Positions 35 through 23,898 of a stretch of DNA of 64,000 nt are shown one piece after another. Position 1 is the first letter of the stretch, and each line of letters starts with the position of its first letter. A program made the position numbers and the translations under genes. The DNA is taken from assembly GCF_031598375.1 (NCBI RefSeq), contig NZ_CP123872.1, positions 868,001 through 932,000 of the forward strand, given 5' to 3'. Under the pieces are notes generated by a model. It saw nothing but the letters and a program-made list of their open reading frames with translations, ran no database searches and had not been told where the DNA came from. The DNA is from Temperatibacter marinus (GTDB lineage Bacteria > Pseudomonadota > Alphaproteobacteria > Sphingomonadales > Kordiimonadaceae).

Positions 35-1006
35 TTATTCAACGTATACAGCCCCTAAAATTTCTTCCCCTTCTTCCCAATGAAGGACGCCAAACGTCGT
101 GTATTTTTCTTTCTGGCTTTCTAGGAATTGCCAAGCACATACCATGGTATAGTCATCATCCACAACAGTTTCTCGCGACCAAAGTTTAAAAGCTTCGCCG
201 AAAGAATGACGTATGGAATAGAGATAGCGTCCGTATGACATGCCGTTTCCGAACATCTCTGGTCCATGGAATTGGTGATGATTGCCGTTTCTGGTGCGCA
301 TGGCCGTCCACTTTCTATTCACCACGCCTTCAATCTCAATTGTTTGCTCACTATGGAGCAAATTGATAGGTTTATGATGGATCGTCACCTTATTTGTCCC
401 GATCAATTCTTGCTGATCATTATAAACTTCAAATTCTCCTCGGAAAACGCCCGCATTCTTCACAGGGTAATTGAAAGGTTTTTTACCGTCAGTTTTCTCT
501 TTCGCTAGGAAATCAATCACCTTTTGTTGAGTCTCAGGGTTAGTCTCATGATCCTGTGTCACCACATAAAGTCCATTGAAAACGCCAACCAAAGTGTCCC
601 CTTCAAATAGTTGAGAAGAGTAGACTTGCAGCCCAAGCTCTGGCACAACGTGATTGACGGTCCGTAGATCAACATTCCAGCCGGGTGAAAAATAACGACT
701 ATCAACTAACAAACCATAAGGGCGGCCTGTTCCGATAAAATCCGGTCCCGTGTAAATCCGGTCCTGATCACTATCGATCACACCAAAGTTGAACTTTGCG
801 CCAATCTCAAACCGATCATTCAACGGTCCCGTGGCATCAAATTTTGTTTCCATCCAATACGTGGTTCGACCGTCTTTAAATTCACTCGCTCTACTCACCT
901 TATTATAGCCTACATGAGTCCCATCTGCTTCAAAAAGCGAAGGCATTCCGTGCCATTCTCCTGTGATTGCCTGTTGCCAGTTACTTGGTTTTTTATCATC
1001 AGCCAT
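35..1006 (-). CDS. calycin-like (DUF3598-type) protein, third gene of RCCR-like operon
   Basis: This is a 323-residue protein with no signal peptide or membrane segment. It has repeated beta-rich stretches with Gly/Trp-spaced motifs such as ITGEWHG near the start, resembling calycin/DUF3598-like barrels. The same opening pattern (GTWHD, then an ALDG turn) occurs in the smaller protein at 4330-4923. I chose the start at 1006 because AAGGGAAC lies just upstream; a longer frame would run back into the preceding gene. It follows the esterase gene by 13 bp, in an operon led by the RCCR-like gene. Several bilin lyases (CpcS/CpcT types) have calycin folds, so tetrapyrrole binding or chaperoning is a reasonable guess. 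That role is inferred from fold and context; enzymatic activity cannot be judged. Confidence 0.62.
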   Translation of the reverse strand: MADDKKPSNWQQAITGEWHGMPSLFEADGTHVGYNKVSRASEFKDGRTTYWMETKFDATGPLNDRFEIGAKFNFGVIDSDQDRIYTGPDFIGTGRPYGLLVDSRYFSPGWNVDLRTVNHVVPELGLQVYSSQLFEGDTLVGVFNGLYVVTQDHETNPETQQKVIDFLAKEKTDGKKPFNYPVKNAGVFRGEFEVYNDQQELIGTNKVTIHHKPINLLHSEQTIEIEGVVNRKWTAMRTRNGNHHQFHGPEMFGNGMSYGRYLYSIRHSFGEAFKLWSRETVVDDDYTMVCAWQFLESQKEKYTTFGVLHWEEGEEILGAVYVE

Positions 1007-1019
1007 TCTCTGTTCCCTT

Positions 1020-2006
1020 TTACTTGGTCTGCAACACAACCGATACTCGGCCTTTTGCACAGTCTTTAATTGTCTTTTCCTGGATGCCCTGGTGGCGAAT
1101 AAACATCCCCACAAGCGCTGCATAAAATTCTCTAAATGCATGTGAATCTATCGTTTCTTCCTGGTCAAGGAAGGGGCGGCCGGTTGTATCATCCTGAGGA
1201 TAGACACATGAAAAATGATTGGCGCCCTCGATAAAAACCAATGCACTCCCATTTCCTGCTTTCACGCCCTCAACAAATGTCCGCTCAATGCGCGCCGTGG
1301 GACTGTCGTCCTCAGCCTTACCATAGCGATGAGAGCTGGATGCAATCACACCGTCCTTTGTTCCCCCTGTCAGCAATACCGGAACATCATCACCGAGCGG
1401 TAAAACTGTATCCTCAGGCCATCCGAGCGCGACCGAGGCACCTGTATGAGCTGCATAGCTAAAAACACCTTTTATTGATGGAAACCACTGTCTATTAGCA
1501 TTCATCAAGGCTACTGTTCCGCCAGCGGAATGACCCCCGATGTAGAGAGATTCCATATCAATCAAACCTGCAAATTGACCTTCTTTATTTAAAGACTTTA
1601 ACTCTTCAAGAAGGGGGGCTATCGCTGGACAACTTGGACCTTTCCCGTGTCCTTCAGGCGAAAAACTCTCCATATCTAGGCCTGGCGTTAAGGAAACATA
1701 ACCCGGCATTTCTTCCGCAATCCAGCTATAGGTCACAACCAAATTACCCTCTTTTGCAAGGGCTTTTGCAAGCCACGCATATGATTCAGGGCCCACATTG
1801 ATCCCCGGCAAAAGAAGCACAACGGGCAAGGGTGCCTTCTCTTCATTCACAGGAATCATTCCTGTATTGCGCTCTAGGTCGCTATTTCCAAAAGTCGCAG
1901 GGTAATAGATCTTCGCGCTGATAGTATCATAAGGCGCTTCAGCTTCCGTCACATGAATAGCGCGGAAGAGAGCACGGACAGAAAAGGGCATGTCTTCAGT
2001 AGTCAT
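1020..2006 (-). CDS. alpha/beta-hydrolase, chlorophyllase/dienelactone-hydrolase-like esterase
   Basis: This 328-residue cytoplasmic alpha/beta-hydrolase has an oxyanion-type strand-turn PVVLLLPG (61-68), a nucleophile elbow G-H-S160-A-G, and a likely triad completed by D218 (TKDG) and H264 (ANHF). The layout, a short lid-free hydrolase with the GHSxGG elbow, is shared by plant chlorophyllases, PETase-like esterases and PAF-acetylhydrolases. It lies between the RCCR-like gene (9 bp upstream) and a calycin-like gene. In this setting it could remove phytol or the C13 carboxymethyl ester from a chlorophyll derivative. The fold and triad are visible in the sequence; the substrate is inferred from neighbours. 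A generic carboxylesterase is the main alternative. Confidence 0.72.
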   Translation of the reverse strand: MTTEDMPFSVRALFRAIHVTEAEAPYDTISAKIYYPATFGNSDLERNTGMIPVNEEKAPLPVVLLLPGINVGPESYAWLAKALAKEGNLVVTYSWIAEEMPGYVSLTPGLDMESFSPEGHGKGPSCPAIAPLLEELKSLNKEGQFAGLIDMESLYIGGHSAGGTVALMNANRQWFPSIKGVFSYAAHTGASVALGWPEDTVLPLGDDVPVLLTGGTKDGVIASSSHRYGKAEDDSPTARIERTFVEGVKAGNGSALVFIEGANHFSCVYPQDDTTGRPFLDQEETIDSHAFREFYAALVGMFIRHQGIQEKTIKDCAKGRVSVVLQTK

Positions 2007-2015
2007 GGATAAGTC

Positions 2016-2831
2016 CTATTCAAGACCAACTCGCGGTAAGGTGCGGTTGCCGCCCCACAATGTTTTCACCATGCGGTCAGCGGGCTCTTTGCCAAACATT
2101 TTCTCAGCCAATGCATTAGCCGGGTCTCGTTCACAAATTGTCATACGAATGGTCTCTTCCCGCTTCGAAATCGCCGCTCTCTCTTCTAAAGGTGTTTTTT
2201 CTGCGTCGCGCATCCATCCAAGCCAGCGATCTAAACGCTCGTGAGCAATGCCTCGGATTTTCTCAATAACGGCATCATCCACATCTGCACAATATCCGAC
2301 GGCTGTGGGTGTCATAGCGATGCGGGTATATAAATCATGAGAAATAAAGGGTTTAAATCTTTCGTCTGCCTGCAGCTCTAAATATTCTTTATTCACTTCC
2401 GTATAATATTTATCTGCATAAGAGGCATCATAAAGATAATCTCTACGGGGAAGATAATCCATATACATAAACAAATCTGGAAGTGTGCCCAGGGCAAAAC
2501 CGAAATTTGGCACATCATACTGAGCACCAGGGCTAATGGTGATATGCATATTGGTAAATGTTGATTCAGGGGAACCTATAAACGAATGAATAAACCAATC
2601 AATCTCAGGGCCCGCATAAGCATTCAAGCTGCCCTCGGTGCCACTGTCACCAAATTTTGTATAATCATCAAACTCATCAGAGCAAGGGTCTTTCGTCAAC
2701 TCAAATTGAGCGTCAATTTTTTCCCGCATTTCAGCCAGAATTGCCCAGAGCTGATTAAAGACAGAACGACGATTTTCATTAGGGCGTTCCTCAACTTGCT
2801 GAATAACAGACTTTAATACTTTTTCACCCAT
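2016..2831 (-). CDS. red chlorophyll catabolite reductase (RCCR)-like protein
   Basis: This 271-residue protein aligns by eye along most of its length with plant RCCR (ACD2), a member of the ferredoxin-dependent bilin reductase superfamily. The matching blocks are VPNF (107-110), LPRRDYL (127-133), the following D-x-S-Y-x-x-K-Y-Y segment, ISHDLYTR-x-x-x-TPTA (163-176) and MFGKE (245-249). In plants RCCR reduces the C20/C1 bond of red chlorophyll catabolite using ferredoxin. The Asp of a D236-P-x-N motif sits close to the catalytic Asp of plant RCCR, while the plant catalytic Glu position appears to be Ala113. The gene heads a three-gene operon divergent from the PaO-like Rieske gene, with a regulon operator between them. 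Family membership is well supported; the substrate is inferred. Confidence 0.82.
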   Translation of the reverse strand: MGEKVLKSVIQQVEERPNENRRSVFNQLWAILAEMREKIDAQFELTKDPCSDEFDDYTKFGDSGTEGSLNAYAGPEIDWFIHSFIGSPESTFTNMHITISPGAQYDVPNFGFALGTLPDLFMYMDYLPRRDYLYDASYADKYYTEVNKEYLELQADERFKPFISHDLYTRIAMTPTAVGYCADVDDAVIEKIRGIAHERLDRWLGWMRDAEKTPLEERAAISKREETIRMTICERDPANALAEKMFGKEPADRMVKTLWGGNRTLPRVGLE

Positions 2832-3097: not shown

Positions 3098-4279
3098 ATG
3101 TTGGTTAATCTTTGGTATGTGGCTGAATGGTCAAAAAATGTGAAGAATGACCCTGTAAAGGTCCAAATATTGGGGCAAAAATTAGTTCTTTTTAGAGATT
3201 CTGAAGGAAAAATTGCCTGCCTCGCTGACATTTGTCTTCATCGCGGCGGATCCCTCGGGAATGGGTGGTGCAAAGACGGAAACGTTGCTTGTCCTTATCA
3301 TGGCTGGGAATATAACACAGAAGGAGAATGCGTTCATATTCCCTCTGAAGGACCTGAGGCCAAAATTTCTAAACGATTCAAAGTAGACAGATATGATGCA
3401 GAAGAGCGCTATGGGATGATTTGGGTCTTCATGGGGGACTTGCCAGAAGAAGAACGCTTTCCAATTCCGCCCTTCCCTGAGTATGACCAGAAGGAGTATT
3501 GGCGCGAAGTTACAACAGAATATACATGGAAGGCAGAAGCCTCTCGGGTCGTTGAAAATGGCATTGATCTAGCGCATGCTTCCTTTGTCCACCCTACTTT
3601 TGGTTACCAAGACACAGCAGGGGATAACAGTATTGACCATGTAGAAATTAATGAGTGGTGGGGCACCTCAACCAATACAAATTACCCCCCTCAATTAAAA
3701 GGAGACTTGGGTTTTAGACGGTTCATTCGCAAGGATAAACAACCAACCCGTACCCATCCAACTTGGTATCTCCCGGGGATGATTGTGCGTATGCAAATTG
3801 ACCTTCGTGAAGGCTGGACCATCATTATGTTTGATGCCAATACACCCATTGATGAGCACACAACCAGAACCTTTGCTATTCAACTGCGCAGCTTCATGAA
3901 ATGGCCTATGTTTGACAAAGGGTCAAAGAAACGGCTAGAAAAAATCCTTCATGAAGACGCTGCCATCGTTGAAGAATCCCAGCCTTATTACTTACCTGAA
4001 ACACTGGCCAATGAATTGTCTGTTGGGGATGATAAATTTATGAATAGTTTCAGAAAAGCACGGCGTATATTGATCGAAGAAAAGGGCTGGCAGATCGACC
4101 TGAAAAAGCGAGATACTGAGAAAGGTCGGACCGTCATGACCATACCCTCCCCAGCGAGAAAGAAAGCAGAGGCGGGGGGAATCAAGTGGGTTTTTGAAAA
4201 AATGCCTACCGTAGGGCCTGTCTCCAACAAAAAATCAGAAAATAGAATGTCGCAGAACTCGTCAAATAACTCAGCGTGA
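3098..4279 (+). CDS. Rieske non-heme iron oxygenase, pheophorbide a oxygenase-like
   Basis: This 393-residue oxygenase has an N-terminal Rieske [2Fe-2S] domain with C46-x-H48 and C65-x2-H68. The catalytic domain carries the mononuclear iron motif N154-x2-D157-x2-H160-x4-H165. The family includes PaO, TIC55 and chlorophyllide a oxygenase from plants and many bacterial ring hydroxylases. Unlike plant PaO I see no C-terminal membrane anchor or CxxC pair, so it looks soluble. The start is set by GGAGG at 3085-3089. The gene stands alone and is divergent from the RCCR-like operon. In plants PaO and RCCR act consecutively to open pheophorbide a, so the pairing supports tetrapyrrole ring opening here. 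Other aromatic substrates remain possible. No dedicated reductase gene is nearby. Confidence 0.82.
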   Translation: MLVNLWYVAEWSKNVKNDPVKVQILGQKLVLFRDSEGKIACLADICLHRGGSLGNGWCKDGNVACPYHGWEYNTEGECVHIPSEGPEAKISKRFKVDRYDAEERYGMIWVFMGDLPEEERFPIPPFPEYDQKEYWREVTTEYTWKAEASRVVENGIDLAHASFVHPTFGYQDTAGDNSIDHVEINEWWGTSTNTNYPPQLKGDLGFRRFIRKDKQPTRTHPTWYLPGMIVRMQIDLREGWTIIMFDANTPIDEHTTRTFAIQLRSFMKWPMFDKGSKKRLEKILHEDAAIVEESQPYYLPETLANELSVGDDKFMNSFRKARRILIEEKGWQIDLKKRDTEKGRTVMTIPSPARKKAEAGGIKWVFEKMPTVGPVSNKKSENRMSQNSSNNSA

Positions 4280-4304: not shown

Positions 4305-4331
4305 GAAAGCCGTCTACTGGCTTTCTTTTTT
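4305..4331. terminator. intrinsic terminator after Rieske gene
   Basis: GAAAGCC (4305-4311) and GGCTTTC (4319-4325) form a 7-bp stem with a 7-base loop, followed by a T run to about 4331. It lies between the convergent genes ending at 4279 and 4330, slightly overlapping the end of the latter. Confidence 0.8.
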
Positions 4332-4923
4332 ATGCGAGTTCTGACCACATTTGAGTGACGAAAGCTTTTTCGTGCACAGGACCGTCTGGCCCCCGTGGAT
4401 CAAGATCATGTCTTTTTTGGCAAGTGGGACTGAGGCGTGTTCCCTTCGCTGTCAGCGTACGAATTGCCTCTCCGTCCTTATACAATACTGTATGTCTCAG
4501 ACGTTCTCCTGGAGCAGTAAGCATGATAAAATCTGGCTCCATATATATATCGCAAGCTTTCTCAAGGCGGCGACTGTTAAACGTCAGAATTCCTGGTCCG
4601 CCTGACATGCCAATATTTTCATAGGCCCCTGGTCCGAGCTGATCAAAAACTAAAACACCCTCTTTTAAATATCCTGTAAAAGTCTTTGCTGTTGTTTCCC
4701 GACCTCTGATATGGACATTTGTCAGTGACATTTTATGTCCGTCAAAGTCTAAATATACTAGATTGTCAAAAGGACTAGGGCCTGGCGTTCCCGCCTTTGG
4801 ATCATCCGATAGAGGTGTGCCATCAAGAGCGTATGTTTCAACATGATCATGCCATGTGCCGCGCATCAACATTAAATTATAGCCAACGGAACCTATGGGA
4901 AAAGTAGGATATGCTTCAGTCAT
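4330..4923 (-). CDS. small calycin-like protein of unknown function
   Basis: This 197-residue soluble protein has no export signal. It opens with MLMRGTWHDHVETYALDG and alternates short beta strands with Gly/Asp turns, as in lipocalin/calycin barrels. A similar opening is seen in the protein at 35-1006, suggesting they are distant relatives. It is transcribed alone, divergently from the NYC1-like dehydrogenase at 5043, with a regulon operator between them. A role in binding a hydrophobic tetrapyrrole intermediate is my inference from the fold guess and regulon membership; no catalytic motif is recognisable. Confidence 0.6.
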   Translation of the reverse strand: MTEAYPTFPIGSVGYNLMLMRGTWHDHVETYALDGTPLSDDPKAGTPGPSPFDNLVYLDFDGHKMSLTNVHIRGRETTAKTFTGYLKEGVLVFDQLGPGAYENIGMSGGPGILTFNSRRLEKACDIYMEPDFIMLTAPGERLRHTVLYKDGEAIRTLTAKGTRLSPTCQKRHDLDPRGPDGPVHEKAFVTQMWSELA

Positions 4924-5042: not shown

Positions 5043-5843
5043 ATGAAATCTGTCGTCATTACAGGAAGCACCAAAGGGATTGGTCGGGGTCTGGCTGAGA
5101 ATTTCTTAAAAAGAGGTTGCAAGGTTCTCATAAATGGAAGGCAAGCAGAAGATGTTGATGCCTTGGCAGCTTCTCTTTCAGAACGCTACGGCGCAGATCA
5201 TGTTGCCGGATGTCCAGGAGATATCACCAAAGCGAAGGATCTCCAAAAGCTATGGGATACATGCACAAAAACATTTGGGCAGGTAGATATTTGGATTAAC
5301 AATGCTGGCATGGGTATGCAACGCGGGCCTCTCTATGAGGCTTCTCCCAGTGCGATCAAAAAAATTGTTGATGTGAATGTAACTGGCATTCTCTTAGCGA
5401 ATGCTGTGGTTTCAAAACAGATGCTGGCTCAAGGCTACGGACAAATATGGAATATGGAGGGCTTTGGTAGTGGCGGTCAGATGCAACAAGGCATGACGGC
5501 TTACGGAGCAACCAAACGAGCTGTTAATTATGTAAACGGCGCTATGCAAAAAGATCTCAAAGATACTCAAATTCAAGTCTGTACGTTAAGCCCTGGAATC
5601 GTCGTGACCGAACTGCTGATGGGAGATTATGACTTAAAGTCTCCAGAATGGGAAAAAGCGAAGAAAATCTTCAATATTCTTGGGGATAAAGTAGAAACAG
5701 TGACTCCCTATTTGGTGGACGGCATTCTTAAAACAAAAAAATCCGGCGCGAAGGTGGCATGGCTTACGGGCGGAAAGGCTTTTGCACGCTTTATGACAGC
5801 TGCATTTAAGAAAAGAGATCTATTCTCTGATCAGGCATCATAG
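5043..5843 (+). CDS. short-chain dehydrogenase, NYC1/NOL chlorophyll(ide) b reductase-like
   Basis: This 266-residue SDR has the cofactor motif TGSTKGIG (7-14), NNAG within IWINNAG (83-89), and the active-site pair Y154-x3-K158. Three features match plant NYC1/NOL rather than generic SDRs: the IWINNAG strand, the block NMEGFGSGG (137-145) in place of the usual NISS, and SPGIVVTELL (183-192). NYC1/NOL reduce the C7 formyl group of chlorophyll b to hydroxymethyl. The gene follows an operator and ends at a strong terminator. A paralogue lies at 26255-27055 beside another RCCR-like gene, which strengthens a tetrapyrrole role. Substrate specificity is inferred; reduction of another ring carbonyl is possible. 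Confidence 0.78.
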   Translation: MKSVVITGSTKGIGRGLAENFLKRGCKVLINGRQAEDVDALAASLSERYGADHVAGCPGDITKAKDLQKLWDTCTKTFGQVDIWINNAGMGMQRGPLYEASPSAIKKIVDVNVTGILLANAVVSKQMLAQGYGQIWNMEGFGSGGQMQQGMTAYGATKRAVNYVNGAMQKDLKDTQIQVCTLSPGIVVTELLMGDYDLKSPEWEKAKKIFNILGDKVETVTPYLVDGILKTKKSGAKVAWLTGGKAFARFMTAAFKKRDLFSDQAS

Positions 5844-8016: not shown

Positions 8017-8077
8017 TTATATTATGTCAAAGGGCAATTTAAAATAATGTAACCTATTGTTATTAGGGAGAAAATTT

Positions 8078-9760
8078 TTGTCAGAGCAAAATACAGTGAG
8101 AGTCGCAGCTGCGCAATTTGCCGTTGGTGCAGATATTAAAGCCAATCTAGCAAGCTGCCTGAAGGCCATTGATGATGCCGCTAAAATTAATCCAGATTTA
8201 CTGGTTCTACCTGAGTTCGCCAATCATCTTTCTTGGTATAATGACAAACAACACTGTTGGGATGTCTCTGCAGATATGGATGACGATTTTCTCTCAGCCA
8301 TTGCCCGCAAGGCACGTGACGTAGGTTTTTATGTTGTGGTGAATGTCACACTGAGACGCGACAGCGAAACTGTGACAGGCACTTCTCTTCTTTTTGATGG
8401 AGAGGGCAACCTTATTGCTGATAATGATAAACAAATATACATTGGCCACGAAAATGACTTCTTACGCAAGGCGCTCTGCGAAGGGCCAATTGTAAAGACT
8501 TCTCTTGGACGTCTGGGGCTTTATGCGTGTATGGACGGGGTGATCAATGAAACACCCAGAAGTTTAGGGCTCAGGGGCGGGCAAATTCTATTGAACAGTT
8601 TAAACAGCTTTGCCAGTGACGAAGGTTCTCTGCATATTCCTGTAAGGGCAGCAGAAAATAAGGTCTTTGTCGTAGCCGCCAATAAAGTTGGTCCGCTTGT
8701 GCCCCCAGAGATGGTTGGTCCCATTTCTCAAGCAACAGGTATTCCAGAAAAATTTCTAGACGGCGCTGGTGAAAGTCAAATCGTTGCACCGGACGGGACC
8801 GTCCTTGCTAGGGCGTCTCTCACAGGCGAAGAGGTTGTGTATGCAGACATTCGCCCAAGCGACGCAGACAATAAAACTCGTCCAGACGGTACAGATATTT
8901 TTGCATCGCGTCGACCTGAGCTTTATTGTTTTATTAGCGAGGATCCTGCACAGCAACCTATACCATCCTATGACGGTGCCGCTGATGCTAAAGCAGCGGT
9001 CATATCCGCAGACTCCCTTGACGAAGTTGTTTCTGCGCTCAAGGAAGTGAGTGGCTCAACGGAGATTATCACTCTTCCTGGGCTTCTCGGCGTTACCTCT
9101 CTAGAAGATTTGCATGCGGCAAAGTCTGAGAGTGATAAGACTATCCAGGCTATCCAATCAGCTTGCGGATCAAGTCTCGTGGCCACGTCAATTGTTGCGT
9201 CTCATGGCAGTGGATTTCAACATCAGGCCGTTCTTATAGATCGGTCAGGTATTATTCTTAGACAAGGTCAAATTCATAGCGCCGAGCGTTTTAAATGGTC
9301 TGCCCTCGCTGATGATGTTGAGAGTCATCAAGCATCCTTTGGCAAGATCGCTCTGATCACAAGTGATGACAGCCTCTATCCTGAGCATGCTCGTCGTCTT
9401 GCCCTAATGGGGATAGAAGTGGCCTGTGTTCCCTTAATTCCCCTTGAAGCATGGGAGCTAAATACAGGATTGCTAGAACGGTCTGCGGAAAATAGGATTA
9501 ACTATCTTGTGGCCACTGCACCAACAGATTTGGGCGTAAGTTTCATTACCAGTTTGCAAAAAGATTTCACTGTAATGACCGAATGGCAGGACAGGCCTTT
9601 TGATGGGCTCTTATCGCAGCCAATATGGACAAAAGCTAAAGGAAAAACTTGTACTGCCACCATTCATCCTGCTGCTGCAGAAAATAAAGTTGTATCGCAA
9701 GGGACTGACATGATGCGCGGTCGCCCATGGCATGTTTCTCAAGCAATAACAGCCACATAA
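8078..9760 (+). CDS. tandem nitrilase-fold (carbon-nitrogen hydrolase) protein, TTG start
   Basis: This 560-residue protein has two nitrilase-superfamily domains. The N-terminal domain (about 1-290) has the full Glu-Lys-Cys triad: E46 (LPEF), K118 (DNDKQ), C151 (YACMDG). The C-terminal half (about 300-560) repeats the fold outline, but the triad positions appear changed: Glu to Gly in LPGLLG, Lys to Gln in RQGQIH, Cys to Ser in ITSDD. It is therefore probably non-catalytic. I set the start at TTG 8078 because AGGGAG lies 8 bases upstream; no ATG fits. It heads the 13-gene operon. The reaction is probably hydrolysis of an amide, imide or nitrile C-N bond, plausible for a maleimide or lactam pyrrole product. 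A paralogue lies at 28020-29663. Confidence 0.82.
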   Translation: MSEQNTVRVAAAQFAVGADIKANLASCLKAIDDAAKINPDLLVLPEFANHLSWYNDKQHCWDVSADMDDDFLSAIARKARDVGFYVVVNVTLRRDSETVTGTSLLFDGEGNLIADNDKQIYIGHENDFLRKALCEGPIVKTSLGRLGLYACMDGVINETPRSLGLRGGQILLNSLNSFASDEGSLHIPVRAAENKVFVVAANKVGPLVPPEMVGPISQATGIPEKFLDGAGESQIVAPDGTVLARASLTGEEVVYADIRPSDADNKTRPDGTDIFASRRPELYCFISEDPAQQPIPSYDGAADAKAAVISADSLDEVVSALKEVSGSTEIITLPGLLGVTSLEDLHAAKSESDKTIQAIQSACGSSLVATSIVASHGSGFQHQAVLIDRSGIILRQGQIHSAERFKWSALADDVESHQASFGKIALITSDDSLYPEHARRLALMGIEVACVPLIPLEAWELNTGLLERSAENRINYLVATAPTDLGVSFITSLQKDFTVMTEWQDRPFDGLLSQPIWTKAKGKTCTATIHPAAAENKVVSQGTDMMRGRPWHVSQAITAT

Positions 9761-9775
9761 AGAATAGGATATATT

Positions 9776-10525
9776 ATGAGTCCAGTCTCTCTACCAAAAG
9801 CCTTATGGGATAACACCTTAAATCAGTTGATAGATCGCCTAAATTTATCAGAAATAACTGGAGATGACGGCGGTCATTATATGGATCTGATCAGTCAGCT
9901 GCCAATGGTACAGGGTGAAGTAGGTAACGTACGCCTCTTCAAAGGCGACGGAATCTATCAGCTTGTCACTTGCTCACTGGTTGTGCCCCCGATCCATCTT
10001 GATAGTCATATGCTTTTTGTTTTTAGCGACTCTGACTGTGCTGTCCCTCATTTCACTTTGGATTCAGTGAAGGCAGGAGAGCATAATGCCTTCCATCTAG
10101 ACCTGATCCCGCGTGTTGATCTCGGATCAAATTATACATATATGACTGAGGTTTTTGGCCCTCTAACAGACTTGTGTGAGGAAGCACGCGCCATTGATGG
10201 GATGGAGAAAGCGCATATTTCTCCTATCCAGTATGCGGTCATGTCACCGTGGATGTTGGTGCAACGTGCAAGCGACGAAGCCTTTGAGAAAATGGACAAA
10301 TATGTAGATGGATATCTCAATCACTGGTTATCGATTGTGGAAAAGGGAATTTCACCTGAAGCACTCGAGGGCCATTCTGCAGACGCTTTGATTGCAAGGG
10401 ATGCTCGAAACAAATCGATGATTTTCGATCCTGCTGTCGATCCTGTTTGGGGTCGCATTGAAGGCATGATTGGCACAGATGCCGTTTCAAAACTGCGCAG
10501 GTTGCTAAAAAGCACCAGCGCCTAA
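9776..10525 (+). CDS. divergent RCCR/bilin-reductase-like protein
   Basis: This 249-residue soluble protein follows the same block order as the RCCR-like paralogues: VPHF (90-93), LIPRVDL, then ISPIQYAV and a DPVWGRIEGMIG block in the MFGKE position. Similarity is weaker than for 2016-2831 and 25412-26221. At the position of the plant RCCR catalytic Glu it carries Asp96 (TLDS), where the other two have Ala and Val. It is second in the long operon, 15 bp after the nitrilase-like gene. It probably binds or reduces a linear tetrapyrrole. Membership of the ferredoxin-dependent bilin reductase superfamily is my visual judgement and needs a profile search. Confidence 0.65.
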   Translation: MSPVSLPKALWDNTLNQLIDRLNLSEITGDDGGHYMDLISQLPMVQGEVGNVRLFKGDGIYQLVTCSLVVPPIHLDSHMLFVFSDSDCAVPHFTLDSVKAGEHNAFHLDLIPRVDLGSNYTYMTEVFGPLTDLCEEARAIDGMEKAHISPIQYAVMSPWMLVQRASDEAFEKMDKYVDGYLNHWLSIVEKGISPEALEGHSADALIARDARNKSMIFDPAVDPVWGRIEGMIGTDAVSKLRRLLKSTSA

Positions 10526-10566: not shown

Positions 10567-11856
10567 ATGACAGAGAGAGCAGACACAAAATATACTGGCG
10601 AATTCTTCGTTGAAGGTATGACCGACGCTGAAAAGCAGAGAGCGGCAGCTGTCGACTCGGTCTTGCCCGCTCTGAAGGCAGCTGCCGCTGAAGTTGACCG
10701 CGAAGGAGCCTTTCACCGTCCTCATGTAAAAACGCTCAGTGATGCTGGTCTAATGGGATTAATCGTCCCTAAAAGTCATGGAGGGATGGGTGGCGGACTT
10801 CGTGATTTAGCAGCGGCGACCTATGCCCTTGGCACAGCCTGCCCTTCAACTGCACTTGCCTTCTTTTTCCATTGTAGTTCTGCATCGCGGGGACTGTTGG
10901 CCTTAGAGGCACTTGAAAATGGCTTTTTTGATGCTTCAGAAAAAGAGGCTGTTCAAGCTTTTGCGGATAAAGTGTTGAACACAATGGGTCATGAGAAAAA
11001 GTGGCTAGCCAATTTTGCCTCAGAAAGTGTGAAGTCTGAAAAGGCGGCAATTACCATCAGTACCAAAGCCAAAAAAATAGACGGTGGTTATCTCTTAAAC
11101 GGCGTTAAATCTTTCGGCTGTGCAACCGGTGTCGCTGATCAATATTTAGTAACCGCCTCCCTAGAAGGAAATGACACAGGGGCTGGACTTTGTACCTTCT
11201 TTATCGACCCAAAGGCCACAGGTGTATCAGAGCGTCAAAAGTGGGATGCCATTGGAATGCGCGGTACAGCAACACACGGTATCATCCTTGAAGATGTTAT
11301 TGTTTCAGATGAGAATGCTCTGGCAATCCCAGGTGCTTTTGTCAAATGCATGCAAATGAGTCGAGGAAGTTTTGTTGGAAACCAGTTAGCAGGCATTGCT
11401 GTCTATCTTGGTGCAGGTAAGGCAATTTATGATGCCTCTCTGCATAATCTAAAAACTTTTACTTTTGGTGATACAGGGAAACCAATCGGTCACGCCCCTT
11501 TTCAGCAAGAACTTATTGGGAAAATGATGGTCGAGCTTGAAACAGCGACCATTTGGTTGCGCCGTCAATTGGAATTAGAAGCCGCTGAAGTGCCTCTTTT
11601 GCCAAAACATGAGGTGGTGCAACGTTGGCGCCTTTGTAAAGGAGTTGTTGCTGAAAGTGCCTTCAAGCTTGCTACCTATGCCTTAAAGACCAGCGGGACA
11701 TCGGGCACAGGATTTTCTGCCCCTATGGCGCGCGGTCTTCGTGACATGGCTATGGCACTTGTCCAAGCCTTCCCTATTGAAAGAGGGCGTCTCATGGCAG
11801 CTCAAATGGAAATGGATGGGGCCGAACAGAGTCAATTTGGGGTCTCAAAAAAGTAA
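10567..11856 (+). CDS. acyl-CoA dehydrogenase-fold flavoprotein, possible monooxygenase
   Basis: This 429-residue protein has the acyl-CoA dehydrogenase fold: an N-terminal helical domain, a central beta domain with the flavin-facing GMRGTATHG loop, and a C-terminal helical domain ending in RGLRDMAMALVQAFP. The usual catalytic Glu and YEGT-type motif of true acyl-CoA dehydrogenases are not evident. The C-terminus resembles flavin-dependent group D hydroxylases and DszC-type enzymes. Either an oxygenase fed by a separate flavin reductase or a true dehydrogenase is possible. It is the third gene of the operon, 41 bp after the bilin-reductase-like gene and 4 bp before an aldehyde dehydrogenase gene. 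Confidence 0.78.
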   Translation: MTERADTKYTGEFFVEGMTDAEKQRAAAVDSVLPALKAAAAEVDREGAFHRPHVKTLSDAGLMGLIVPKSHGGMGGGLRDLAAATYALGTACPSTALAFFFHCSSASRGLLALEALENGFFDASEKEAVQAFADKVLNTMGHEKKWLANFASESVKSEKAAITISTKAKKIDGGYLLNGVKSFGCATGVADQYLVTASLEGNDTGAGLCTFFIDPKATGVSERQKWDAIGMRGTATHGIILEDVIVSDENALAIPGAFVKCMQMSRGSFVGNQLAGIAVYLGAGKAIYDASLHNLKTFTFGDTGKPIGHAPFQQELIGKMMVELETATIWLRRQLELEAAEVPLLPKHEVVQRWRLCKGVVAESAFKLATYALKTSGTSGTGFSAPMARGLRDMAMALVQAFPIERGRLMAAQMEMDGAEQSQFGVSKK

Positions 11857-11860
11857 GGAC

Positions 11861-13300
11861 ATGACGGTGCGAACATTTGGTCATATCATTGGAGGCGAAG
11901 AAATTGCTGCACAGAGCGGCAAGACATTTGACGTTTTATCTCCGTCAACGCAGGCTGTTATTGGTGTGTGTGCGGACGGGGCATCAGAAGACATAGATGC
12001 TGCCGTCTCTTCCGCGCGTGCTGGCTTTAAAATATGGTCAGATCTTGCGCCAAAAGACCGAGAAGCCTGCCTCTTAAAAGCAGCAGATCTGGTGGAAAAA
12101 GAAGGAGTGGAACGTTTCTTAAATACTCTTATGCATGAGAGTGGTTCTGTCCTTAATAAGGCACGCGGTGAAATTGCATATACAGTGGATCTCTTAAGAA
12201 CGGCTGCTGGTGAAGTCCGCCGTCTCTATGGAGAAACTTTTCCCAACGATAATCCAGACAGAATGTCGCTTGTCATTCGGGAACCGTTGGGGGTGGTTGC
12301 TGTGGTTTCGCCCTATAATGCCCCTTTAGCTTTGCTGGTTAAAATGGCCGCCTTTCCTCTCGCTGCAGGGAATAGCGTTGTGATTAAGCCTTCTGAAGAA
12401 ACGCCAATGATTGCTCTGGCTTTTGTCAGACTGCTCTTGGATGCAGGTTTGCCCAAAAATGCGGTCAACATTGTCACTGGCTTTGGTCTGGGAACAGGAA
12501 AACCACTTGTCGAGCACGAAGATATTGACGCTATTGCTCTCACTGGCTCAACGCAAACAGGTATTGCAGTTGGTGCAGCAGGCATGCAGAAAATGCGGCG
12601 GATGCAGCTCGAGCTTGGCGGTAAAAGCGCACTGATCATTTTAAAGGATAGCGACCCGCACAAAGCCGCAAAAATTGCTGCTCAAGGGATTTTCACCCAT
12701 GCGGGTCAAATCTGCATGGCCAACAGTCGTATCCTTGTTGAGCAAGAAATCCTCAAAGACTTTCTTGTTGCTTTTAAAGCCGAAGCCGAAAACTTACCTA
12801 TTGGCGACGTGGAAAGTGAAAAAAGTTTTTACGGCCCTTTAATAAATCAAGCCGCAGTCTCAAAAGTCCAAGCCCATGTTGACAGTGCCGTTGCAAAGGG
12901 AGCGACTTTATTAACAGGAGGCCAACTCTTAGAGGGTTTAGTCTATCAACCCACCATTCTTCTAGAAACACCAAGAAACTGTGATGCTTGGCGCGAAGAA
13001 AGTTTTGCACCTATGTGCAGTGTTATCGGAGTGAGCTCCTTAGATCATGCGATTGAAGAAGCTAATGATAGTCCTTTTGGATTAAGTGCTGCAGTTCTGA
13101 CTCAGAATATCAGTCGCGGGATGCGAGCGGCTAAAGAGATTAAAGCAGGCTCTGTGCATATTGGGATGCATGCATTTCAAAGCAATGCTCTTGCTCCCAT
13201 TGGTGGATTCGGTATGTCAGGCATTGGTAAATCTGGCGGACGCTATAGCACCGAAGAATTCACAGAGCAAAAGTGGATTAGTATCGAGGTAAATGAGTAA
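11861..13300 (+). CDS. aldehyde dehydrogenase family protein
   Basis: This 479-residue NAD(P)-dependent aldehyde dehydrogenase has SPYNAP in the Rossmann region, GSTQTG near the cofactor, the catalytic Glu in LELGGKSA and the nucleophile Cys in GQICMANSR. The start at 11861 lies four bases past the preceding stop, with TAAGGA as ribosome site; the longer frame overlaps the upstream gene and is unlikely. The family oxidises aldehydes to acids or acyl-CoA. Here the aldehyde is probably a fragment released during ring or side-chain cleavage. It overlaps the next gene by one base, so the two are translationally coupled. Confidence 0.9.
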   Translation: MTVRTFGHIIGGEEIAAQSGKTFDVLSPSTQAVIGVCADGASEDIDAAVSSARAGFKIWSDLAPKDREACLLKAADLVEKEGVERFLNTLMHESGSVLNKARGEIAYTVDLLRTAAGEVRRLYGETFPNDNPDRMSLVIREPLGVVAVVSPYNAPLALLVKMAAFPLAAGNSVVIKPSEETPMIALAFVRLLLDAGLPKNAVNIVTGFGLGTGKPLVEHEDIDAIALTGSTQTGIAVGAAGMQKMRRMQLELGGKSALIILKDSDPHKAAKIAAQGIFTHAGQICMANSRILVEQEILKDFLVAFKAEAENLPIGDVESEKSFYGPLINQAAVSKVQAHVDSAVAKGATLLTGGQLLEGLVYQPTILLETPRNCDAWREESFAPMCSVIGVSSLDHAIEEANDSPFGLSAAVLTQNISRGMRAAKEIKAGSVHIGMHAFQSNALAPIGGFGMSGIGKSGGRYSTEEFTEQKWISIEVNE

Positions 13301-13902
13301 TGGATTTAGAACGCAATGCCATGGATATGGGCAACATGCCTGCCCTTCTTTTGGTAGATATGATCAACGGCTTTACAAATTCAGCATGCTCATTGGGTAG
13401 TGATTGCCCGGACGTTGTTGCTGCCAACGCCGTCTTATTATCGGAATTCAGAAGATTAGGCTTGCCAATTTTCTACACGACTGTTGTCTTTCACAACGAT
13501 GATCAAGCTAAAGTTTTTCGTGGTCGTATAGATGCTCTCAATCAGCTCACTCCCGACAGTAATTGGGTAAAAGTTGACCCAAAACTTGCTATGCAAGAAG
13601 GGGAGGTCCTTATTGAAAAACAATGGGCAAGCTCTTTCCATCAAACTGACCTGCATGAACAGCTTCAAGCATGTGAGGTTGATAGCTTAGTAGTAACAGG
13701 CCTTACCACATCAGGCTGTGTCAGAGCCACAGTCGTGGACGGTCTTCAATATGATTACCGTGTCTTTGTTCCTAGGGAGGCCGTTGGAGACAGAAATCAA
13801 GACGCTCATCAAGCCAATCTTTTTGATATGCACGCAAAATATGCTGATGTTATCTCACTGGATGAAGCCATTAAACACATACGTCGTAGTCAGGGTAAAT
13901 AA
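13300..13902 (+). CDS. isochorismatase-family cysteine hydrolase, maleamate-amidase-like
   Basis: This 200-residue protein has the full isochorismatase-family amidase triad: D20 (LLVDMINGF), K107 (IEKQWAS) and C140 (TTSGCVRATVVD). Relatives include N-carbamoylsarcosine amidase, nicotinamidase and maleamate amidohydrolase NicF. It starts on the last base of the aldehyde dehydrogenase stop and is followed at once by a flavin monooxygenase gene. With maleate-isomerase-like genes just downstream, deamination of a substituted maleamate to a maleate is the most economical role. Activity of the family is established; this substrate is inferred. Confidence 0.82.
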   Translation: MDLERNAMDMGNMPALLLVDMINGFTNSACSLGSDCPDVVAANAVLLSEFRRLGLPIFYTTVVFHNDDQAKVFRGRIDALNQLTPDSNWVKVDPKLAMQEGEVLIEKQWASSFHQTDLHEQLQACEVDSLVVTGLTTSGCVRATVVDGLQYDYRVFVPREAVGDRNQDAHQANLFDMHAKYADVISLDEAIKHIRRSQGK

Positions 13903-13903
13903 C

Positions 13904-15112
13904 ATGTCTCAAGAGTATCCCGTTATTATTGCCGGTGCAGGTCCTTCTGGATCTGTCCTCGCTTTATCTCTCGCTAAAGCGGGTGTCAAAGTTCTGCTTC
14001 TTGAAAAGGAAGCTCAGTTACCAATTGACCTTCGGGCTTCTACTTTCCATCCACCCTCTTTAGAGATGATCGGCGCCATGGATCAAGACATCGTTGATGC
14101 CATGATAGATAAAGGATTAGTGGCTGATCGCTATCAATATCGAGATCGAAAAACGGGCGACTGCGCCACTTTTAATATGGCTCAGCTTAAAGACGAAACC
14201 AGCTATCCGTTTCGCCTTCAGTTGGAACAATATGAGTTGACATACCTGATTGCTGAAAAACTCAAAGACTACCCCAATGTCGAGGTGCGCTACAATCATG
14301 AGGCGCTTCGCTTTGAGCAAACTCCTGAGACTGTCATCCTTTTTGCTAACACTCCGGAAGGAGAGGTCAGTCTTACAGGATCTTTTCTCATTGGCGCTGA
14401 AGGCGCGCGTTCGAACATCCGCAAGAGCTCTGGAATTGCTTTTGGCGGATTTACTTACGATGAAAAATTTCTTGTCGTCAGTACTTCTTTTGCCTTTGAA
14501 GATGTCTTTGATGATCTCTCTTATGTGAATTACGTAGCAGACCCTGACGAATGGTGTGTCATTTTACGCACTGAAAAAATTTGGCGGGTCCTCTTCCCTA
14601 CACAGGGTGACGAAGATCCGAATTACATTCTCTCAGATGAATTTATTCAAGAGAGACTGCACCATCTTCACCCAAGAGAAGGCGCCTATGACATTGGTCA
14701 TAGAACAATTTACAATGTGAACCAACGCGTGGCTGAAACTTATTATCAGGAACGGATGGTTCTCATTGGGGATGCCTGTCATATCAACAATCCTTTAGGG
14801 GGAATGGGGATGAACGGCGGGCTACATGATGCTTTTAATTTGGCTCCGCGTCTCATTAAAATTATCGAAGGAAGCGCGACTCATCAAAAGGAGTTCGCTC
14901 AGTATGATCGTCAACGTAGGGAATTGGCGGTTAAATTTGTTCAGGATCATACCATTGCAAATAAAAAACTTATGGAATCTACTGATCCTGATGTTCAAAC
15001 AAAACGACAAAAGTGGTTGATGGAAACGGCGGCAGACCCTGTTCAAGCCAAAGAATTTCTATTGGAAAGAGCCATGATTAACTGTGTGCGTGACAGTCTC
15101 AAGGTTGCTTGA
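13904..15112 (+). CDS. FAD-dependent monooxygenase, group A (PHBH-like)
   Basis: This 402-residue flavoprotein has an N-terminal dinucleotide motif G11-A-G13-P-S-G16 with a Glu about 20 residues later (LLLEKE), and the second FAD motif IGDACH around residue 289. These are typical of p-hydroxybenzoate-hydroxylase-type aromatic monooxygenases. I start it at 13904, one base past the isochorismatase gene; the longer reading is out-of-frame overlap with that gene. It may hydroxylate or oxidatively cleave a pyrrole or other aromatic intermediate using NAD(P)H and oxygen. The C-terminus (TKRQKWLMET onward) is family-like. Confidence 0.85.
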   Translation: MSQEYPVIIAGAGPSGSVLALSLAKAGVKVLLLEKEAQLPIDLRASTFHPPSLEMIGAMDQDIVDAMIDKGLVADRYQYRDRKTGDCATFNMAQLKDETSYPFRLQLEQYELTYLIAEKLKDYPNVEVRYNHEALRFEQTPETVILFANTPEGEVSLTGSFLIGAEGARSNIRKSSGIAFGGFTYDEKFLVVSTSFAFEDVFDDLSYVNYVADPDEWCVILRTEKIWRVLFPTQGDEDPNYILSDEFIQERLHHLHPREGAYDIGHRTIYNVNQRVAETYYQERMVLIGDACHINNPLGGMGMNGGLHDAFNLAPRLIKIIEGSATHQKEFAQYDRQRRELAVKFVQDHTIANKKLMESTDPDVQTKRQKWLMETAADPVQAKEFLLERAMINCVRDSLKVA

Positions 15113-15141
15113 TGACTGCAGTCCAAGGACTGGAGGGAAAA

Positions 15142-15921
15142 ATGATGAATAAATATGGGTATGGGACAGACTATTATGGCTACCGCAAGAAATTTGTTGT
15201 GCTCGTGCCAAGCACCAATACAGCTGTGGAAAGTGAATATCACTTGATGAAGCCTACAGGTGTTGCCCTTGCAACAAGAGCCTGTGTTATCCCCTCTATA
15301 AAAGTAACCAATGAAGAAGAATTCGTTGGGCTTGTAAAAGCCATTGGGGATGCCACTGAGCAAGGATTGAAAGATGCCCTGAGCTGTGAACCGGATCATG
15401 TTATTTTTGGCTATTCAGCAGAAACATTCTGGGACGGTAAAGAACGGTCAGACCGAGAATTTAAACGCTATAATGATATTGCCCAAGCTGTGGGCGGATG
15501 CAACATCACCTTTGGGGCTCAAGCCATTCAAGATGCTTTAGCCTGCTATCCTGGTGTAAAGAAAATTGCTGTCATTTCACCATACATGCCTGTCGGCGAT
15601 AATATGGTTATAAAGTTTTTAGAAGATATCGGCTATGAAGTCACTGCAATCAAGGGCCATTGTTCCCCGGGTGCCGTTGAAATTGCTCACGAGCCTTTTG
15701 GCAAAACCCGTGAATTGGTGCAAGCAGTGAATAGCGCTGACTGTGATTTGATATTACAGGCTGGAACGAATTTACACTTCGCAGAATTAGCAGGCTCCTT
15801 GGAAGCCGAACTGGGAAAACCAGTTCTCGCCATCAATACAATCACTTTTTGGCATGCATTAAGGACCAATGGCATCCCAGATCGCATTAAAGGGTTTGGG
15901 TCTCTATTATCTGAACATTAA
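15142..15921 (+). CDS. maleate isomerase/arylmalonate decarboxylase-like protein lacking catalytic cysteines
   Basis: This 259-residue member of the Asp/Glu racemase superfamily has LVPSTNTAVESE near the start and a mid-protein ISPYMPVGD, both typical of maleate cis-trans isomerase. Maleate isomerase uses two cysteines. Here the first position reads GYSAETFW (Ser/Ala) and the second reads QAGTNLHF (Gly), so both appear missing. GGAGGG at 15132-15137 places the start at ATG 15142 or 15145. A paralogue (17159-17935) lies two genes downstream. It may bind or isomerise a substituted maleate by another mechanism, or act as a decarboxylase-like or non-catalytic partner. Confidence 0.75.
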   Translation: MMNKYGYGTDYYGYRKKFVVLVPSTNTAVESEYHLMKPTGVALATRACVIPSIKVTNEEEFVGLVKAIGDATEQGLKDALSCEPDHVIFGYSAETFWDGKERSDREFKRYNDIAQAVGGCNITFGAQAIQDALACYPGVKKIAVISPYMPVGDNMVIKFLEDIGYEVTAIKGHCSPGAVEIAHEPFGKTRELVQAVNSADCDLILQAGTNLHFAELAGSLEAELGKPVLAINTITFWHALRTNGIPDRIKGFGSLLSEH

Positions 15922-17158: not shown

Positions 17159-17935
17159 ATGGACAATTATCAAATCGCAAAACGGGCACAGATCGGGGTT
17201 TTAATCCCTTCTACCAATACAGGGGTAGAATATGACTTGCAAAAGTTCATTTTAGACGGTGTTTCATGGCACCCTTCTCGGTTCTGGATTGAACTTAAAA
17301 ACTGGCAAGAAGAACAAGATAAAACAGGAGAAGGGATCGACAATGTCTTCGAACGTTTTCTCGATATGATGCGGGATGAAATTCCTATTTCTATTAGAAA
17401 TGTCCTCTCTGCAAAAATTAATCATTTGATGCTGGGCATGTCTGCAGAAACATTTTGGGGTGGGCTAGAAGGCAATATAAAATTTGAGCAGGAAATTCAG
17501 GATCAGGTGGGTGACATAGGCGTGACCACGGCCGCAGCGGCCACACGGGATGCTTTAAATTGCTTTAAGGCAAAAAACATCTCGGTGATTACCCCTTATC
17601 CCCCTGTAGGGGATGTGAATGTGCGTCGTTTCTTTAGTGATATCGGCTTCAATGTTATTCATGTGAAAGGTATGGCACGTCCAAGTGCCACGGCGATCGC
17701 AGAAACGTCCATTTCAGAAGTCCTGAGCGCTGTCCAAGAAGTAGACGGCGATAACGTGGACGCGATTGTTCAATGCGGTACAAATTTATCAACTATAGAT
17801 CTATTCCCCACATTAGAACATACCCTAAGCAAGCCTATGTTGCCGATCAATGTTGCAACAATTTGGGGCGCTCTAAGAGCCGTGGGCGTTAAAGATAAAA
17901 TCACAGGCAAAGGCCGTCTTTTAGAAGAATTTTAA
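17159..17935 (+). CDS. second maleate isomerase-like protein
   Basis: This 258-residue paralogue of 15142-15921 has LIPSTNTGVEYD, GMSAETFWGG, ITPYPPVGD and QCGTNLSTIDL. As in its paralogue the first catalytic Cys position is Ser/Ala. At the second site a Cys is present one residue earlier than expected (C-G instead of A-C). The SAETFW block shared by both proteins defines a subgroup distinct from canonical maleate isomerase. The two may form a heteromer or handle differently substituted maleates. It follows the MFS gene by 9 bp and precedes a membrane protein gene. Confidence 0.75.
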   Translation: MDNYQIAKRAQIGVLIPSTNTGVEYDLQKFILDGVSWHPSRFWIELKNWQEEQDKTGEGIDNVFERFLDMMRDEIPISIRNVLSAKINHLMLGMSAETFWGGLEGNIKFEQEIQDQVGDIGVTTAAAATRDALNCFKAKNISVITPYPPVGDVNVRRFFSDIGFNVIHVKGMARPSATAIAETSISEVLSAVQEVDGDNVDAIVQCGTNLSTIDLFPTLEHTLSKPMLPINVATIWGALRAVGVKDKITGKGRLLEEF

Positions 17936-18934: not shown

Positions 18935-20356
18935 ATGGCACAAACCCTTTATGATAAAATTTGGTCGGCTCATTTGGTGGATGAAGAAAAAGACGGTAGC
19001 TGCCTGCTCTATATCGATCGTCACATCATTCATGAAGTCACTTCAGCACAAGCCTTTGAAGGACTGAAGCAAGCTGGACTATCTGTTTGGCGTAAAGGCT
19101 CAATTCTTGCCACGCCTGACCATCAAGTCCCCACCACTGGGCGCGGCTTAGGACTTGAGGGGATTGAAGATACGATCGCGCGTGAACAAGTCATCACTCT
19201 TGATCAAAATTGCCGAACCAATGATATCCGTCACTTCTCTCTTAATGACCATCGCCAAGGAATTGTCCATGTTGTTGGACCAGAGCAAGGGGCGACTTTA
19301 CCTGGCATGACAGTTGTTTGCGGCGACAGTCATACATCCACCCATGGGGCTTTTGCAGCCCTCGCCCAAGGCATTGGCACAACTGAAGTCGAACATGTTT
19401 TGGCCACACAAACACTGTCCCAGAAAAAAGCGAAAACGATGCTGGTTCAGGTTGACGGCGCACTCAAACCAGGCGTCACTGCCAAAGACCTAGCCCTCTA
19501 TATTATTGGCCAAATTGGTCTTGCCGGCGGAACTGGATATGCCATTGAATATTCTGGCTCTGCAATCAGAAGCCTCTCGATGGAAGGGCGCATGACCCTT
19601 TGCAATATGTCTATAGAAGCTGGGGCGCGCACTGGAATGGTTGCTTTTGATCAAATCACAGAAGCCTATCTAAAAGATAAACCCTTTAGTCCAAAAGGGG
19701 CGCTCTGGTCAAAAGCTGTTAGCCACTGGAAAACATTAAAATCTGATTCTGACTCTCAATTTGATAAAGCCTATTTTATAGATGCCTGTGATATTGAACC
19801 GCATGTGACTTGGGGGACGAAGCCAGAGCAAGTTTTACCAATTTCAGGTTTAATACCGGATCCGGAGAATGAAACAGACTCAGTTAAGCGAGCAGATTAT
19901 ACCAGAGCTTTAACGTATATGGGGCTCAAGAAAAACAGGTCTCTGATGCATACACCAATTGATCGTGTCTTCATCGGAAGCTGCACCAATGGTCGGATCG
20001 AAGATATTCGTGCTGTCGCTCATTTTGTAAAAAATAGACGCATTGCACCGTCCATTAAAGAAGCCCTTGTTGTTCCAGGGTCTGGGCTTGTGAAAGCCCT
20101 AGCTGAGTCAGAGGGCCTCGATGTCATTCTTAAAGAAGCCGGTTTTCAGTGGCGCTTTGCAGGCTGCTCAATGTGCAATGCTATGAATCCTGATCATCTA
20201 TTACCTGAAGAACGCTGTGCCAGCACCAGCAACCGAAATTTTGAAGGTCGGCAAGGGCCTAAAGGCCGTACGCACCTTATGAGCCCCGTTATGGCCGCAG
20301 CAGCAGCGATTACAGGCAAAATTACAGACAGTCGACTGCTTGAGGAGAGAGAGTAA
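18935..20356 (+). CDS. LeuC-type hydro-lyase large subunit (aconitase superfamily)
   Basis: This 473-residue protein has the complete aconitase-superfamily large-subunit pattern: [11 protein letters not shown] and the [4Fe-4S] ligands C350 (SCTNGR), C411 and C414 (GCSMC). Overall it is most like 3-isopropylmalate dehydratase LeuC. The same architecture is used by dimethylmaleate hydratase (DmdAB) of nicotinate fermentation and by bacterial maleate/citraconate hydratases. No leuA or leuB is nearby, and it sits after two maleate-isomerase-like genes, so hydration of an alkyl-maleate to an alkyl-malate fits better than leucine synthesis. It ends overlapping the small-subunit gene by one base. 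Confidence 0.85.
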
Positions 20357-20991
20357 TGGACCCTTTCATCAAGCATAAAGGCACTGTGGCTTTTATCGAT
20401 AGAGCCAATGTGGATACAGATGCCATCATGCCAAAACAATATCTGAAATCCATTAAGAAATTTGGCTACGGTGATTGGTTGTTTGATGACTGGCGATACT
20501 TAGATCCCGGCGATATCAATCGTCCCATTGAGACACGCCGAATAAATGAAGACTTCGAATTAAATAAGCCGGAATACAAAGGGGCATCCATTCTGGTTGC
20601 TCAAGAAAATTTCGGATGTGGTTCAAGCCGTGAGCACGCTGTTTGGGGATTGAGAGACTATGGTATACGCTGTGTCATAGCACCATCTTTCGCTGATATC
20701 TTCATGCAAAATTGCTTTAATAATGGCCTGCTGGCACTTGAGATAGCTCAAGAGACAGTCGACACCCTCATTCGCGCAAAAGCACCTGTTCAAATGGACA
20801 TCAATTTAGAGCAACAAACACTCACTCTAGATGAAAAAAAAGTGATCCAATTCACCATCGAAGAGAGTAGAAAATATAAGTTACTAAACGGATTGGATAC
20901 CATATCAATGACGTTACAAAAGGCTGATAAAATCAAAACCTTCGAAAAATATCATGCTGAAAAAGAGCCATGGGTTTTTATAGATTTGTAA
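20356..20991 (+). CDS. LeuD-type hydro-lyase small subunit
   Basis: This 211-residue swivelling-domain partner of the preceding protein contains NVDTDAIMPKQYL and GCGSSREHAVWGL followed by IAPSFADIFMQNC. These are the LeuD substrate-loop and core motifs. Leucine-pathway LeuD usually has EHAPWAL; here it is EHAVWGL, a small deviation near the active site. It is translationally coupled to the large subunit. The pair should form a heterodimeric [4Fe-4S] hydratase; the suggested substrate, a substituted maleate, is inferred from context. Confidence 0.85.
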   Translation: MDPFIKHKGTVAFIDRANVDTDAIMPKQYLKSIKKFGYGDWLFDDWRYLDPGDINRPIETRRINEDFELNKPEYKGASILVAQENFGCGSSREHAVWGLRDYGIRCVIAPSFADIFMQNCFNNGLLALEIAQETVDTLIRAKAPVQMDINLEQQTLTLDEKKVIQFTIEESRKYKLLNGLDTISMTLQKADKIKTFEKYHAEKEPWVFIDL

Positions 20992-23838: not shown

Positions 23839-23898
23839 GGGTTCCATCCTTCTTCTATTCTTTCTATAGCAAGACATTTACCATTGCTCAATATGTAT

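Follow-up and report, generated by a model that had tools for sequence, protein, structure and literature searches.

The window analysed here, a stretch of 64,000 nucleotides from Temperatibacter marinus, carries on its forward strand an intact open reading frame of 249 codons with an ATG start and an AGGA-like ribosome site upstream. It starts 15 bp downstream of a nitrilase reading frame that ends at 9760, and an acyl-CoA dehydrogenase-fold frame begins 41 bp after its end. This is a real gene, which we call the target. The features of the window that bear on it are as follows; the loci in which conservation was counted are described further on.

35..1141, - strand: double-calycin protein with a predicted fold like DUF3598 and BFA1, adjoining the target in many relatives
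1020..2006, - strand: alpha/beta hydrolase, PETase/cutinase-like, with a GHSAGG motif; conserved in 22 of the 38 target loci
2016..2831, - strand: RCCR1 paralogue (PF06405 E 1.2e-16); Ala113 opposite Glu154, Asp236 kept
3098..4279, + strand: Rieske oxygenase of VanA_C/SxtT/NdmA type, not PaO type
4330..4923, - strand: "calycinB" (named by eye), with no Pfam match; conserved in 10 loci
5043..5843, + strand: SDR oxidoreductase; conserved in 26 loci
8057..9760, + strand: nitrilase-type protein made of two CN-hydrolase halves, of which, by eye, only the first has Glu-Lys-Cys
9776..10525, + strand: the target, a predicted RCCR/FDBR-fold protein of 249 aa; Asp96 and Asp222 invariant in the family
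10061..10063, + strand: Asp96 codon (GAT), in the column of AtRCCR Glu154 and the PebB Asp
10439..10441, + strand: Asp222 codon (DP motif), in the column of the PebB/HY2 DP Asp and near RCCR Asp291
10567..11856, + strand: acyl-CoA dehydrogenase / flavin monooxygenase fold protein, next downstream of the target
11864..13300, + strand: aldehyde dehydrogenase; conserved in 13 loci
13300..13902, + strand: isochorismatase-fold amidohydrolase, candidate maleamate amidase
13898..15112, + strand: FAD monooxygenase (PF01494)
15139..15921, + strand: AMDase/Asp-Glu racemase-family protein 1
17159..17935, + strand: AMDase/Asp-Glu racemase-family protein 2; conserved in 13 loci
18935..20991, + strand: extra LeuC/LeuD-type hydratase pair (the housekeeping copy is encoded outside the island, next to LeuB at genome position 2,208,968)
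22969..23877, - strand: PEP-mutase/isocitrate-lyase family lyase, below the prpB cut-off
25412..26221, - strand: RCCR2 paralogue (PF06405 E 1.5e-11); Val112 opposite Glu154
28020..29663, + strand: second nitrilase-type protein, likewise of two halves

The island extends beyond the upstream end of the window, and the preceding 20 kb (stretch L056) also hold a second Rieske oxygenase, an isochorismatase and an HMG-CoA-lyase-family protein, together with these features:

L056:5506-6531 (genome 853506-854531), - strand: hydrolase over the chlorophyllase cut-off (PF07224, 38.9 vs 26 bits), about 14 kb before the window
L056:15671-17532: pair of neighbouring polysaccharide-deacetylase-family proteins, by eye like PuuE allantoinase
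L056:17474-19515: second extra LeuC/LeuD-type pair

The protein at 35..1141 is strongly conserved in the cluster and is without a Pfam or PDB sequence match; the structure predicted for it (pLDDT 82) has its matches in DUF3598 of Nostoc and in BFA1. Calycins often bind pigments, and by analogy a role as pigment carrier is plausible for it. We rejected the Rieske protein as an orthologue of PaO, since its C-terminal domain is VanA_C. Outside the conserved cassette, a DUF1838 protein (PF08894) lies at 51220-52224 on the - strand, and the segment 55204-63947 holds xylose-like sugar-use genes by eye (isomerase, kinase, transporter, LacI-type regulator), apparently unrelated.

The AlphaFold model of the target (pLDDT 94.2, pTM 0.92) has the alpha/beta/alpha sandwich common to RCCR, PebA, PebB, HY2 and PcyA. 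In a Foldseek search of the PDB, its first 43 matches are all RCCR/FDBR, as is every match up to E 1e-5; the best is RCCR 3agb (E 2.4e-10), TM values are 0.76/0.80 for PebA, 0.77 for PebB, 0.75 for HY2 and about 0.68 for PcyA, and HemF turns up at the edge of the search. As far as prediction goes, the RCCR/FDBR fold of the target is settled. The statement of an earlier note on this DNA that the protein keeps the RCCR block order is thus correct for the fold, though identity to both paralogues is only about 15%, and the structure prediction that it had proposed as a check gave this fold and not a different one.

Placement within the superfamily is less direct. The nearest Pfam family is FDBR (PF05996), at E 0.0025 and 18 bits against a cut-off of 31, and RCCR (PF06405) scores E 0.025 and 14.2 bits against a cut-off of 24.9. 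As a single sequence the target found no useful match among PDB sequences; a three-sequence profile reached tomato HY2 (1.6e-5) and Arabidopsis RCCR (4e-5), a larger profile of orthologues only reached RCCR at just E 0.02, and a mixed profile gave RCCR 2.4e-19, HY2 1.7e-12 and PebB 1.5e-10, a score partly due to the paralogues included in it. Leaving aside the model and the paralogues, the sequence evidence for the family would be modest. In our trees, the orthologues of the target form one clade (99/99 and 100/99), reached by a long branch and apart from RCCR1, RCCR2 and plant RCCR, while RCCR1 and RCCR2 group with plant RCCR. Because the target falls below both Pfam cut-offs and has Asp instead of the Glu at AtRCCR 154, we assign it to a distinct branch of the RCCR/FDBR superfamily that has yet to be named. 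No FDBR gene over the cut-off was found in 299 genomes of the phylum.

The earlier note had aligned Asp96 with the catalytic Glu of plant RCCR, and our profile alignments agree: they put in one column Asp96, Arabidopsis RCCR Glu154 (mature-chain E111 + 43 = 154, an offset inferred from chain length), a PebB Asp ('DLPFLGLDLV') and a HY2 Asn. The target has both the hairpin-strand Asp of FDBRs that follows the conserved Pro (the PebB Asp) and the Asp of their C-terminal DP motif (Asp222); the latter lies 0-2 columns from AtRCCR Asp291, varying with gap placement. In the model, Asp96 sits in the middle of strand 92-100 of a hairpin, and the equivalence of strand and column, rather than superposition, would place it in the pocket. 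Asp96, Asp222, Asp76, His78, Asp109 and Asp115 never vary among 35 aligned orthologues from several phyla, so that the acid at position 96 is not there by chance. Judged by these alignments, an Asp in the Glu154 column is an FDBR-type residue and not an oddity; this match to PebB had escaped the earlier note. One divergent RCCR/FDBR-like protein (G351 C144, L011:11604-12323) has Glu in the Asp96 column; it has a long branch, which makes its placement unsure, and its genome also has an RCCR2-type gene.

The two paralogues differ from the target at this position. Opposite Asp96, a gapless alignment gives Ala113 in RCCR1 (VPNFGFA) and Val112 in RCCR2 (VPHFVMV), the same non-acidic residues that had been read before. 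MAFFT sets a one-residue gap beside the Asp96 column in RCCR1/RCCR2, which leaves either Phe112 or Ala113 as the residue facing Asp96; whatever the gap placement, neither protein has D or E in the matching strand. The same holds for the RCCR1- and RCCR2-type proteins read in relatives (sixteen extra stretches fetched, two of them not counted), all of which are without the Asp96-column acid and have the DP-motif Asp. In several gammaproteobacteria, as in the window, two RCCR-type genes and the target lie within about 50 kb of each other on a single contig. This recurrence of two non-acid proteins plus an acid-bearing one fits the suggestion that the three divide the labour. The split into binding and catalysis proposed with it fares less well: RCCR1 and RCCR2 may well be catalytic themselves, since they keep the second acid (the DP-motif Asp, Asp236 in RCCR1) and group with plant RCCR. 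It is simpler to suppose that the three proteins act on different bonds or on different intermediates.

The target has relatives well beyond its own lineage. Although a first scan of genome contigs with the target alone found none, and plasmid records held none, a second scan with a two-sequence alignment as query returned 37 loci. The 38 target loci span Gamma-, Alpha- and Deltaproteobacteria, Actinobacteria, Acidimicrobiia and Chloroflexi, with hosts including Microbulbifer, Paraglaciecola, Parahaliea, Pseudomaricurvus, Nocardia, Planomonospora, Acidimicrobiia, a Caldilineales MAG and deltaproteobacterial MAGs. Common to them is a set of RCCR, Rieske oxygenase, nitrilase, DUF3598-like double calycin, esterase and SDR genes; homologues were counted in 32 of the 38 loci for the calycin-like protein, 31 for the nitrilase, 27 for the Rieske protein, 26 each for the SDR and RCCR1, and 22 for the esterase. 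A clear RCCR homologue was present in 10 of the 11 target-bearing genomes searched whole, mostly ones without RCCR1 in the fetched stretch, the exception being a MAG in which the contig with the target measures only 5.5 kb. A chance neighbourhood was rejected as an explanation, since these genes are found together again and again, at 38 loci of several phyla. The target is part of a conserved multi-phylum, putatively catabolic cluster, which the earlier note had not seen.

Closer to T. marinus, none of the 60 nearest relatives searched has the target, and the 29 other genomes of the family lack RCCR1 and RCCR2. These absences point to horizontal acquisition, though the base composition is not unusual. 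The genome has no photosynthetic reaction-centre gene, and the cluster is therefore not a phototroph's own pigment turnover.

Several known systems resemble parts of this arrangement. With RCCR (PF06405; Arabidopsis 2zxk/3aga/3agb), the target shares the fold, an acid at the Glu154 column and an acid near Asp291, and it shares its cluster with a true RCCR homologue; it differs in its score below the Pfam cut-off, in Asp for Glu, in its separate clade and in its bacterial catabolic cluster. With FDBRs (PF05996; PebA, PebB, HY2, PcyA), it has in common the fold (TM 0.68-0.77), the PebB Asp column and the DP-motif Asp, but it is again below the cut-off and in a separate clade, and no haem oxygenase or phycobiliprotein genes were seen beside it. 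The plant PaO/RCCR (phyllobilin) pathway likewise combines a Rieske oxygenase, an RCCR-fold reductase and a chlorophyllase-family hydrolase, whereas the Rieske protein of the target cluster is of VanA_C type and not PaO, and the cluster has extra genes for putative pyrrole breakdown. Pre-PcyA proteins are FDBR-superfamily members of heterotrophic bacteria found in conserved clusters with globins, V4R proteins and haem oxygenase (Rockwell et al., PMC10151467). The target is similarly an FDBR-superfamily protein of non-photosynthetic bacteria in conserved clusters, but these hold Rieske, nitrilase and amidase-type genes in place of the globins, V4R proteins and haem oxygenase.

With moderate confidence, we suggest that the target acts in a bacterial catabolic pathway as an FDBR-like enzyme reducing an opened linear tetrapyrrole, most likely one derived from chlorophyll, and that Asp96 and Asp222 are its acid pair. 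Known FDBRs and RCCR take single electrons from ferredoxin, and acids in their pocket protonate the bound tetrapyrrole. The conserved acid pair makes the same chemistry likely for the target: it would reduce a double bond of the opened tetrapyrrole with electrons supplied one at a time by a ferredoxin-like donor, with Asp96 and Asp222 protonating or anchoring the substrate as in those enzymes. We infer the substrate, the electron donor, the order of steps and the catalytic role of Asp96. In the route that the other genes suggest, the cluster hydrolases would cleave ester groups of a chlorophyll-type pigment, the Rieske oxygenase would open or oxidise the ring, and RCCR1 and the target, joined in some species by RCCR2, would reduce the linear product. 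The reduced product would then be cleaved into pyrrole pieces, which amidases, hydratases and a lyase would degrade.

For the end steps, maleimide-type pieces might be opened by cyclic-amide hydrolases and amidases (the deacetylase-family pair at L056:15671-17532 are candidates for opening a cyclic imide), hydrated by LeuCD-type enzymes and split by the PEP-mutase-family lyase. This is the least certain part of the route, drawn from family resemblance only. The maleamate/maleate and dimethylmaleate routes of nicotinate degradation use an isochorismatase-fold amidase, AMDase/racemase-family enzymes, a LeuCD-type hydratase and a PEP-mutase-family lyase. The likeness of the island to them is at family level only, and neither racemase-family protein keeps both maleate isomerase cysteines: by eye the one at 15139-15921 is without both active-site cysteines and the one at 17159-17935 keeps only the later, so that we downgraded a maleate-isomerase role for the pair.

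Other readings of the cluster have to be weighed against this one. That it degrades haem-derived or phycobilin-type bilins, with the target an FDBR-like enzyme on biliverdin or a phycobilin, would suit the Asp shared with PebB and the rank of FDBR as nearest Pfam family (E 0.0025). We nevertheless regard it as unlikely: the paralogues are RCCR-type and not FDBR-type, a chlorophyllase-family gene and other esterases lie in the island, and no haem oxygenase showed among the cluster genes scanned. Somewhat less probable still is that the target is no reductase but binds or carries the linear pigment, or that it has come to catalyse a different reaction with this fold. In favour are the long branch that the target ends, the calycin proteins of the cluster that resemble pigment binders, and HemF at the edge of the fold search, coproporphyrinogen oxidase sharing the fold; but the invariance across phyla of both acids and of Asp76, His78, Asp109 and Asp115 fits catalysis better than carriage. 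To the idea that the cluster acts on a non-tetrapyrrole compound, for which RCCR/FDBR-fold proteins were recruited, we give very little weight. Although the Rieske, SDR, ALDH, nitrilase, isochorismatase and aconitase-type families serve many catabolic routes, the two or three RCCR/FDBR-fold lineages, the chlorophyllase-family protein and the double calycin together point to a linear tetrapyrrole.

A wider and more tentative possibility, to which we give somewhat less than even chances, is that heterotrophic bacteria of several phyla have a complete, horizontally spread pathway by which chlorophyll is mineralised as far as central metabolites; two or three different RCCR/FDBR-fold reductases would act in it in series, and the target would be the first known of a new reductase family. 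Very large quantities of chlorophyll are formed and lost every year, and the open-licence literature describes breakdown genes almost only in plants; full-text searches of it returned no paper on a bacterial RCCR cluster. Such a cluster would give testable genes for microbial chlorophyll breakdown and explain the consumption of pyrrole rings, and the target would add a third lineage to a small superfamily whose choice of reaction depends on a few acid residues.

Two points that count against the proposed reading are the VanA_C rather than PaO type of the Rieske proteins and, as regards electron supply, that the island holds no ferredoxin, the Fer2 proteins being encoded elsewhere in the genome. 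The Microbulbifer version of the cluster includes a rubredoxin fused to a reductase (L014:3232-4692), a possible source of electrons.
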